Source: a virus
Virus record (IMG/VR): IMGVR_UViG_3300037427_001102
Coordinates: 1-21,257 of that record
Length of the DNA stretch: 21,257 bases
Reading direction: 5' to 3' (one strand)
Positions 4,181 to 21,003 of the stretch are shown piece by piece. The position numbers and the translations under genes are program-made. The notes beneath the pieces are model-generated. The model ran no database searches. It was not told the DNA's origin and saw only the letters and a program-made list of their open reading frames with translations. Each line of letters begins with the position of its first letter. Within the stretch, counting starts at the first letter, position 1.

Positions 4181-5452
4181 TTATTTAACCTTATCAAACT
4201 TCGCTGCTTGAGTGATACCTTGTACATATCTACTCATCACGGTGTTGTCTGTTAAAGTCCCTTGATCAACGCTATCTTCTAGCTTATCGCTATCATCTGC
4301 TTTCGCTTTAGGAAAATAATTTTCCTTGATAACATTAAGTTTTGAAATATATTTGTCTTCGTTTTCGTATGTAATACTTTCAACTAGACTAGCAAATTTC
4401 TCTACTTCTGTTTCAGCTAGATCGTCAACCACGGAACGGAAAACTTTTTCCTTTTGTAGTTGTTCTTTTTCTTCGCTGATAGTTACAGACTTACCAATCT
4501 CTTCGTCTAACTTAGATTTTAGTTCGTCTATTTGTTGCTGCTGAGAACTCAATACATCGAATTTTTCCTCTGGAACATCAATGTAATGTTCTACGAAAAC
4601 TTCCTGCATGCCTTTAATAAAGCTTTCAGTAATTTCGTTTCTTAGGCCGCTCTCAATAGCCAGCTCGTTTTCTGACATCCACTGCTCTGTCACATAAGAC
4701 AGATACTTGTCGATGTTTTCTACAAGTTTTTCTTTAGCTTCGTCAAAAGCCTTATTGGCTTCCTCAACAAGTTCGTTTTCTATTTCTGTTACTTGTTGAT
4801 TGACTCTTGCTACCACACTAGCTTCAAATAATGATGCCGCTTGTGTTTTAAATTCCTCTGAAAGATGCTCTTCATCAGCAAATAAGTTAGCAATGTCTGC
4901 CTCGAATAAAGTTTCTTCTGTTGAGTCTTCTTCAGATGCTTCTACTTCGGATTCTTCCTCAGCAATAACTTCTTCTTCGCCTTCTTCAACATATTCTACT
5001 TCTTCGCCTTCGACTACTTCTTCCTCTGCAACAATTTCTTCTTCAGTTTCAGAAACAGGTGTTTCTTCTAGTACTTCGTCTTCAGTCTCTTCGACTTCTT
5101 CCTGATGTACATTACCTTTAGATGATGATTGTGCTACAACGCTTTGAGTTGCCTCTCCATCGTTGTAATTAGGTGCTTTACCAGCACCTGAGTTAGAAGG
5201 TCTAGGGGCACTACCAGCTTTAGCTGATGCTTCCTTACCTACTGGGCTAGTTAATCCGCCTTCTGGGTTGCTAGTACCACTTAGGTCTTGCTGTTCAGGG
5301 TTTGGATTAGAGTTACCTTGTAGGGGTGGTTTAGCATCTCCATTGCTTGACTTATCCAACGGACGATTAGCCGCTAGTTCGTCAAGTACTTCTACAGCAT
5401 CGTCTTGCAACTTGCCTTCTAGAAGTTCTCTGATTTTGGATTCTACTCCCAT
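4181..5452 (-). CDS. 22: Prohead core scaffolding protein, gp22-like
   Basis: 423 residues, against 269 in T4 gp22. It forms the internal core on which the gp23 shell assembles, and the core is later cut to small peptides. The position between gp21 and gp23 is diagnostic. Layout: a short N-terminal helix (1-30), a Ser/Pro/Gly/Asn-rich linker (about 31-116), a very acidic Glu/Val block (about 117-184), then a long helical coiled-coil-like region (about 185-370) and a C-terminal tail. Two LFE|A sites, after Glu184 and Glu210, match the site in gp23 and are likely gp21 cuts. The conserved-looking core includes ADIANLFADEEHLSEEFKTQ. AGAGGAG precedes the ATG and two overlapping late boxes lie upstream. 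The extra length is mainly the linker and the acidic block. Confidence 0.93.
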   Translation of the reverse strand: MGVESKIRELLEGKLQDDAVEVLDELAANRPLDKSSNGDAKPPLQGNSNPNPEQQDLSGTSNPEGGLTSPVGKEASAKAGSAPRPSNSGAGKAPNYNDGEATQSVVAQSSSKGNVHQEEVEETEDEVLEETPVSETEEEIVAEEEVVEGEEVEYVEEGEEEVIAEEESEVEASEEDSTEETLFEADIANLFADEEHLSEEFKTQAASLFEASVVARVNQQVTEIENELVEEANKAFDEAKEKLVENIDKYLSYVTEQWMSENELAIESGLRNEITESFIKGMQEVFVEHYIDVPEEKFDVLSSQQQQIDELKSKLDEEIGKSVTISEEKEQLQKEKVFRSVVDDLAETEVEKFASLVESITYENEDKYISKLNVIKENYFPKAKADDSDKLEDSVDQGTLTDNTVMSRYVQGITQAAKFDKVK

Positions 5453-5499: not shown

Positions 5500-5513
5500 T
5501 ATTTATATTTATA
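5500..5513 (-). promoter_or_regulatory. Two overlapping late promoter boxes for gp22
   Basis: The minus strand reads TATAAATATAAATA, two exact TATAAATA boxes (5506-5513 and 5500-5507) sharing TA. Predicted starts are about 5500 and 5494, both upstream of the gp22 ATG at 5452 and its RBS. Confidence 0.8.
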
Positions 5514-19947: not shown

Positions 19948-20277
19948 TTATACTTTCGTCACTTCTGGGGTTACTGTTACTAACCCCTCTAGAACTCTTA
20001 AAGTTTCAGATGCGCTTGTTATTTCAACATCATACACATAACGCCCTGGTTTAAGCGCTGCTGTTTGAACTGCTGACAAACTAATCGTTACCTTTCCTGT
20101 ATCATCTACCTTAACACATGTAAAACTTGTGCTAGCAGATGCTTCATAAGACTTTCTCATTTGGCTAGCTACTGTATATGATGTCAGATCTTTTGCGGAA
20201 GCATCGTCATTAGTTAGATTTATGTCTAAACTAAAGGTGGTTCCCTGATCTATAACTATATTTTGTACGGTGGCCAT
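19948..20277 (-). CDS. Beta-sandwich virion-type protein, first gene of the fibre operon (109 residues)
   Basis: An Ig-like beta pattern: VQNIVIDQGTTFSLDINLTN, DLTSYTVASQMRKSYEAS, KVTISLSAVQTAALKPGRYV and YDVEITSASETLRVLEGLVT. The same IDQG...DLTGY...QMRK...LKPGRYVYDV...EG.VTV layout is found in small structural proteins of marine T4-like phages and resembles the N-terminal domain of upper-baseplate (BppU-like) proteins; this is recalled, not searched. The late promoter at 20311-20318 gives a predicted 28-nt leader with only a weak AAGAGA ribosome site. It heads a long minus-strand operon through the fibres into gp13-17. Probably a virion adaptor or fibre base. Confidence 0.78.
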   Translation of the reverse strand: MATVQNIVIDQGTTFSLDINLTNDDASAKDLTSYTVASQMRKSYEASASTSFTCVKVDDTGKVTISLSAVQTAALKPGRYVYDVEITSASETLRVLEGLVTVTPEVTKV

Positions 20278-20310
20278 TCAAGTATCTCTTATAAATTCGT
20301 TGTATAGTCT

Positions 20311-20318
20311 TATTTATA
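20311..20318 (-). promoter_or_regulatory. Late promoter (TATAAATA) for the fibre-neck-terminase operon
   Basis: An exact minus-strand box with a predicted start near 20305, 28 nt before the ATG at 20277. It is half of the 12-bp palindrome TATTTATAAATA shared with the plus-strand promoter. No other exact box was seen between here and gp18, so it may serve 20277 down to 11422. Confidence 0.78.
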
Positions 20319-20322
20319 AATA
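20315..20322 (+). promoter_or_regulatory. Late promoter (TATAAATA) for the glycosyltransferase pair
   Basis: An exact plus-strand box overlapping the minus-strand box by 4 bp. The predicted start at about 20328 leaves only a 7-nt leader (AATTACA) before the ATG at 20335, with no Shine-Dalgarno sequence. Confidence 0.7.
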
Positions 20323-20334
20323 AAAGTAATTACA

Positions 20335-21003
20335 ATGAAAACTATTTTAACATTAAAATATGGTGACAAATACAGCGCAGATGCTGTCAATTCTATATAC
20401 GAGCATACCGAAGGCAAGTATAATTATGTTTGTGTAACAGATGACCCTAAAGATTTGCACCCCGATATAGGAATTATTTATATGGAACATGAGCCAAATG
20501 GCAACATGGAAAAAATAAAATTATTTCAATTAAAAGACTTGGGTACAATATTATATCTGGATTTAGATATAAGAATACAAAAGAATATAGATCATTTGTT
20601 TGATTATTGTCGTCATAACCCTGTAATTGTATATACATGGTGGAAAGATAAAGGAGATAAACAAATAAGCATACATGATTTCCCATGGCAATCAGAGTTT
20701 GTAGGGCCTTTAAGTAACTATAATTCTAGTGTAATGCTTTGGAAAGATGCTACACATATATGGAAACACTATAATGAGTACCCTGAAACATATGATGTAA
20801 AGTATCCTTATGGTGATGATACATTTTTATATCATGAAGGATTTACATTTGAACACTTACCCAAAGAGGAAGTATATGCTTTTAATACGACAGGAAGAAA
20901 ATATAGACCTGAATATACAATATGCTTATTAAATGGATTAGACAGAAACCCGGAGATTGAGAAAGAATATGATGAACTTTGTATGCATCAAGTGGGGCAC
21001 TAA
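20335..21003 (+). CDS. Glycosyltransferase-like protein, GT-A fold (222 residues)
   Basis: A likely nucleotide-sugar glycosyltransferase, soluble and with no membrane segment. The N-terminal Rossmann-like start is TILTLKYGDKYSADAVNSIY, with CVTDD at 33-37. The DxD motif that binds metal and nucleotide is LYLDLDI (73-79; Asp76, Asp78). NSSVMLWK (130-137) and YGDDTFLY (159-166) follow, as in GT8-type and related small GT-A enzymes. The end ICLLNGLDRNPEI may stand for the usual H-x-G...KP region. It starts at the ATG just after the late promoter, without a ribosome binding site. Its 3' end overlaps a paralogous gene by 32 nt. Substrate unknown: virion fibre, cell-surface glycan or DNA base are all possible. 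Confidence 0.82.
   Translation: MKTILTLKYGDKYSADAVNSIYEHTEGKYNYVCVTDDPKDLHPDIGIIYMEHEPNGNMEKIKLFQLKDLGTILYLDLDIRIQKNIDHLFDYCRHNPVIVYTWWKDKGDKQISIHDFPWQSEFVGPLSNYNSSVMLWKDATHIWKHYNEYPETYDVKYPYGDDTFLYHEGFTFEHLPKEEVYAFNTTGRKYRPEYTICLLNGLDRNPEIEKEYDELCMHQVGH
20475..20482 (-). promoter_or_regulatory. Exact TATAAATA antisense inside the glycosyltransferase gene
   Basis: A minus-strand TATAAATA with predicted start near 20469, inside a plus-strand coding region and about 190 nt upstream of the fibre operon. It could add transcription of that operon and antisense RNA across the GT start, or be a chance match in AT-rich coding DNA (it encodes part of IIYME). Confidence 0.25.

Follow-up and report, generated by a model that had tools for sequence, protein, structure and literature searches.

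The window, the whole stretch of DNA analysed here, is an IMG/VR virus record of 21,257 bases from a T4-like phage. Its minus strand is occupied by the structural genes of the phage, and its terminase is 49.8% identical to that of phage S-PM2. The minus-strand fibre/tail run begins with a fibre-assembly-type gene (19948–20277, −) that matches phrog_3304, 'L-shaped tail fiber protein assembly', and phrog_1084. A plus-strand run begins with a glycosyltransferase (GT) gene (20335–21003, +) that matches phrog_1962 and has a Pfam GT8 match under the cut-off. It is followed by a second, overlapping GT-like gene, of which only the start is present because it is cut by the contig end (20969–21257, +); this gene is the orthologue of gene 2 in the GT operon of G001, a related 170-kb contig whose fibre-assembly protein is 75% identical. 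Inside the structural module, an IscA-like gene (482–853, −; PF01521) adjoins a NifU-like gene (843–1277, −; PF01592).

Between the fibre-assembly gene and the first GT gene, at 20311–20322, lies a perfect 12-bp palindrome, TATTTATAAATA, which consists of two overlapping, outward-facing late boxes. The fibre-facing box (20311–20318, −) and the GT-facing box (20315–20322, +) are both exact matches to TATAAATA, with the 4-bp TATA at 20315–20318 common to the two. An earlier note on this DNA had described the two exact boxes sharing 4 bp and had placed them between a minus-strand fibre operon and plus-strand glycosyltransferases; the matches to the octamer and to the phrog profiles bear out both statements. 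The T4-type late octamer is present on both strands, and the two strands have overlapping −10-type elements, as in bidirectional promoters. TATTTATAAATA has a single exact copy within the window. The octamer was found at 11 sites in the window compared with 3.1 expected, a number reached in 0 of 100 shuffles, and palindromes with at most one mismatch at three sites compared with 0.38 expected. Conservation, described below, is stronger evidence against a chance origin of the palindrome than these window counts. No further exact plus-strand late box was found in the window between the fibre gene and the GT gene. Host sigma-70 promoters in the intergenic space were also considered and rejected, as there was no TTGACA/TATAAT pair on the relevant faces and counts equalled those in shuffles.

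Late boxes were also noted elsewhere in the window. A second divergent junction (2465–2525) has a pair of unshared outward late boxes, spaced 53 bp apart, which shows that the same phage also uses this arrangement. A tandem late box, TATAAATATAAATA, lies at 5500–5513 (−) ahead of a minus-strand gene (4181–5452); it recurs at 86499 in G001, where the flanks are almost the same. An extra fibre-facing octamer lies within the GT coding sequence (20475–20482, −), and in G001 at 71430; it could serve as another promoter for the fibre genes, or simply reflect conservation of the encoded protein.

Conservation of the palindrome was analysed in loci carrying an orthologous fibre-assembly gene (best 80 of 484 matches), 74 of which contain the junction and 48 of which are distinct in sequence. 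Among these distinct loci the exact palindrome is present in 28 and absent from 20. The 28 palindromic loci have the 12-mer, and the AG that follows it in the fibre direction (20309–20310, −), without any variation. This AG is the only asymmetric conserved feature, and the GT side has no such constraint. Meanwhile, all 27 flank columns tested (11 left, 16 right) vary, with a mean of 4.0 Fitch changes on the gene tree. Zero change was found in the four outer columns that only the GT-facing box needs (Poisson P 1.3e-7, a guide only, as it assumes equal rates across columns). Four-fold degenerate sites differ by a median of 59% between palindromic members, so the identity of the 12-mer is not explained by too short an elapsed time. 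Both faces are conserved, and the pattern supports the action of selection on each of them. Two changes are required to place the palindromic state on the protein tree, which would fit a single origin plus one member whose position is weakly supported.

Each of the 20 non-palindromic relatives has an octamer facing the fibre gene at a distance of up to about 140 nt; in four, it is located inside the GT gene, about 100 nt upstream. A fibre-facing box is thus present in all 48 distinct loci from the best 80 of 484 matches. The bases before it are GTAT, TTAT, TTCT and others, indicating that a fibre-facing promoter needs no TATT. The possibility that TATT is simply the usual sequence upstream of late boxes was rejected, as 102 non-palindromic boxes showed no such preference. 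An exact GT-facing octamer upstream of the GT gene was not found in 19 of the 20 non-palindromic relatives; the remaining one, L077, has a separate GT-facing octamer that overlaps the fibre start codon.

A start rule was derived from the 102 distinct non-palindromic boxes, taken from six contigs belonging to the palindromic group. At the sixth position past the box, A is found in 62% and G in 25% (87% purine), with T just before it in 52%. TATAAATA-N5-ATG was found at 19 of 116 boxes, compared with 2.0% after permuted octamers (p=9e-12). Both the purine preference and the N5-ATG excess fit the T4 rule, which places the octamer at −13 to −6 (PMC1524935), suggesting that many late mRNAs of the group are leaderless. 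The palindrome itself carries the initiator signal on both faces: among the 28 loci, the sixth base is a purine in 89% on the GT face, where A and G interchange, and in 93% on the fibre face. The purine, N5-ATG and both-face signals all agree with T4-type spacing, about 6 nt past the octamer. By this rule, late RNA of the fibre operon is predicted to start at 20305 (−) and that of the GT operon at 20328 (+), each with T at −1 and A at +1. The predicted fibre leader is 28 nt long, to the ATG at 20277, and is 7 nt shorter or longer in relatives. The predicted GT leader, AATTACA (20328–20334), is 7 nt long without a Shine–Dalgarno sequence, and across relatives the GT start codon lies 12, 13 or 23 nt past the box. 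The majority of GT-side leaders are without a Shine–Dalgarno sequence, which counts against a two-way reading.

The earlier note had proposed starts at about 20305 (−) and 20328 (+) and a 7-nt plus-strand leader without a ribosome site. The starts are predictions here as well, with both faces fitting the group signal, and given the predicted GT start the leader is as the note described it. The short leader is less of a problem than it appeared there; leaderless late genes are common in the group, so a 7-nt leader is unusual but fits. In a separate instance in the window, the start predicted from the box at 2465–2472 (−) falls on the A of the ATG at 2459 (site 2459–2472), and the leaderless late mRNA signal in these marine phages should be a useful guide to gene starts.

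The late transcription apparatus is encoded by the close relative G001, which has homologues of gp55 (E=3e-59), gp33 (E=4e-18) and gp45 (E=5e-62); the 21-kb window does not span those genes. G001 contains two palindromes in total, each between divergent genes, while divergent junctions make up 14 of its 227 junctions. The second palindrome, at 162681, has a minus-strand gene on one side and, on the other, a plus-strand gene with a match to phrog_1158 (tail assembly chaperone). Seven loci carrying this plus-strand gene were compared. The palindrome accompanies it in six, several of which differ in their minus-strand gene; in L241, the remaining one, a pair of unshared outward boxes spaced about 34 nt apart takes its place, which suggests that a late box is needed in both directions. 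One copy of the 12-mer, in the related contig G038, sits between tandem genes and counts against the two-way promoter reading. Around position 2960 of these seven loci (L236–L242), a constant plus-strand chaperone-like gene faces varying minus-strand genes, and the junction is predicted to be a gene-exchange slot whose two-way promoter stays the same. Between the second palindrome and the minus-strand gene there seems, judging by eye, to be an early promoter of TTGACA type.

The search of T4-like genomes for the 12-mer between divergent genes, a check that the earlier note had suggested, gave a positive result at the gene 26 (−)/gene 51 (+) junction of T4 (116450–116461) and RB69. These two of 17 T4-like isolates have one copy each, and no copy was found in the other 15, including RB49, KVP40 and all 12 marine ones, an absence that weighs against the two-way promoter reading. 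Counting the chaperone-like junction too, the palindrome appears again at two other divergent junctions of the T4 superfamily. Six more genomes (Tequatrovirus, Karamvirus, Jiaodavirus, Tegunavirus, Gaprivervirus and an Acinetobacter phage) all have the palindrome, with changed flanks. The palindrome is hence present in 8 of 8 sampled genomes of T4's group amid diverged flanks, although this sample is biased towards conservation because the six were picked by their similarity to the T4 junction. In the phage Lutter record, the octamers are entered as a pair of promoters with a 4-bp overlap. Outward boxes separated by 0 to 30 nt were seldom seen in the T4-like genomes surveyed (2 in 22).

The 26/51 junction of T4 resembles that of the window in its identical 12-mer, its divergent late virion genes, its single copy per genome and its conservation amid changing flanks. 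It differs in that the gene pair is non-homologous to the pair found here (phrog_3304/1084 and phrog_1962), that genes 26 and 51 have Shine–Dalgarno leaders while the GT gene of the window has none, and that the phages hosting it are enteric Straboviridae, whereas the window group are marine relatives of Kyanoviridae. T4 late promoters in general have, as here, the TATAAATA octamer one turn upstream of the start, an AT-rich downstream region and no −35 element (PMC2988020); unlike this palindrome, ordinary ones are one-way. A DNA-level search for relatives among isolates returned only short matches to fibre-gene repeats. Melnitz-1, HTVC008M, P-HM2 and Mosig are without the junction because the gene before their fibre-assembly gene is on the same strand. 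In a pelagimyophage study, attempts to predict late promoters in its genomes were reported to have failed (PMC7029224).

As a control across IMG/VR contigs, the 12-mer followed by an ATG at 10–28 nt was compared with the reversed 12-mer (120 stretches each, among the matches listed). The 12-mer was not enriched at divergent junctions in these matches (18/122 compared with 17/118 for the reversed 12-mer, p=1). Because the divergent share is equal in the control, the palindrome by itself is no proof of a two-way promoter, and the case rests on T4-type context and conservation. As a mark of two-way promoters across all viruses the 12-mer was rejected, there being no excess over the reversed control among the IMG/VR matches listed.

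Taken in that context, the palindrome is very probably a late promoter of a T4-type phage that works symmetrically, in both directions, and serves both operons. Promoter activity at the site is what we infer from its sequence and conservation. A gp55-like late sigma, with gp33 and the gp45 sliding clamp, would bind the 12 bp in either orientation, and RNA would start about 6 bp past either end of the palindrome. Leftward transcription from near 20305 would enter the fibre-assembly operon and rightward transcription from near 20328 the GT operon. The two orientations would exclude each other at binding, so that firing opportunities would be shared, and the back-to-back operons would be expressed late and simultaneously from one compact site.

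A one-way fibre promoter would account for some of the same data. The GT-facing box would then be an AT-rich coincidence kept by ancestry, with GT transcription coming from elsewhere or from read-through. Consistent with this, the fibre-facing box is found in 48 of 48 loci, whereas the exact GT-facing box is restricted to the palindromic group and L077, and the fibre side alone has the invariant AG after the box and normal leaders. A coincidence, on the other hand, would not be expected to hold four outer bases fixed while every neighbouring column changes (P about 1e-7), and one-way boxes show no upstream TATT preference that could have produced them. The purine retained at the predicted GT start, and the absence of a second exact plus-strand late box in the window between the fibre and GT genes, point the same way, and we regard the one-way explanation as distinctly unlikely. 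It is very improbable that the palindrome chiefly serves as the site of a dimeric regulator of the two divergent operons instead of as two promoters. Divergent intergenic space is indeed the usual location for such a site, and the palindrome is a perfect inverted repeat. Its symmetry, however, is fully explained by two copies of the phage late consensus, of which the window has 11, mostly one-way; there is no symmetric conservation beyond the palindrome, and other, unrelated gene pairs have the 12-mer between them as well, among them T4 26/51, for which the Lutter record lists promoters.

The two-way late promoter might in addition act as a true regulatory balance, with exclusion fixing the ratio of fibre to GT RNA. 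The earlier note had stated that only one polymerase could occupy the site at a time, forcing a choice between strands. Exclusion is plausible, as the overlap in principle forbids simultaneous occupancy. To speak of a forced choice is too strong: at overlapping −10 promoters for E. coli sigma-70, exclusion does occur, yet the basal rate of firing is too low for the two directions to compete, and it is strong activation in one direction that can repress the opposite one (PMC12825309). Since exclusion in E. coli matters only when firing is strong, a balance of fibre against GT is possible at most. Separated boxes in L241 and L077 also indicate that overlap is not obligatory, and a true balance is accordingly rather unlikely. 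The bacterial bidirectional promoters (Warman, Grainger and colleagues; PMC12825309) likewise have overlapping −10-type elements on two strands, with common start spacings of 18, 10 and 23 bp; the spacing in the window, predicted from 20305 and 20328, is 23 bp. They differ in using host sigma-70 and pseudo-symmetric elements, where the window has a perfect palindrome and would use a phage late sigma and sliding-clamp activation.

In T4, the direction in which gp45 activates depends on how it is oriented on the DNA. A symmetric late promoter could on that basis read the orientation of the sliding clamp, coupling the direction of transcription to that of replication; depending on the polarity of the replication fork or nick, one and the same 12 bp would drive either the fibre operon or the GT operon. 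We consider this extension speculative and unlikely. As T4 carries such a palindrome, the choice of direction by a clamp-activated polymerase is testable in a laboratory phage with existing purified components.

The element is also present at 26/51 in phages of the T4 group, and promoters that fire both ways through overlapping −10 elements have been described in bacteria; in the open-access literature we found no description of a palindromic, overlapping or bidirectional phage late promoter. What is new is that both faces are deeply conserved, that the element recurs at unrelated junctions and that fibre and GT operons are linked. Fully symmetric late promoters would recur in the T4 superfamily at fibre/GT, chaperone-like/changeable gene and T4 26/51 junctions, and the fibre and GT operons, both likely tied to host recognition, are predicted to switch on together late.

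The GT operon of G001 comprises about six genes with overlapping ends, and no other exact late box was found at its head. A ThyX-type thymidylate synthase (PF02511) is among these genes, at about 67.8–68.5 kb, and is also found in the relative L165 (7814–8527, −); a nucleotide-synthesis gene consequently appears to be under a late promoter.
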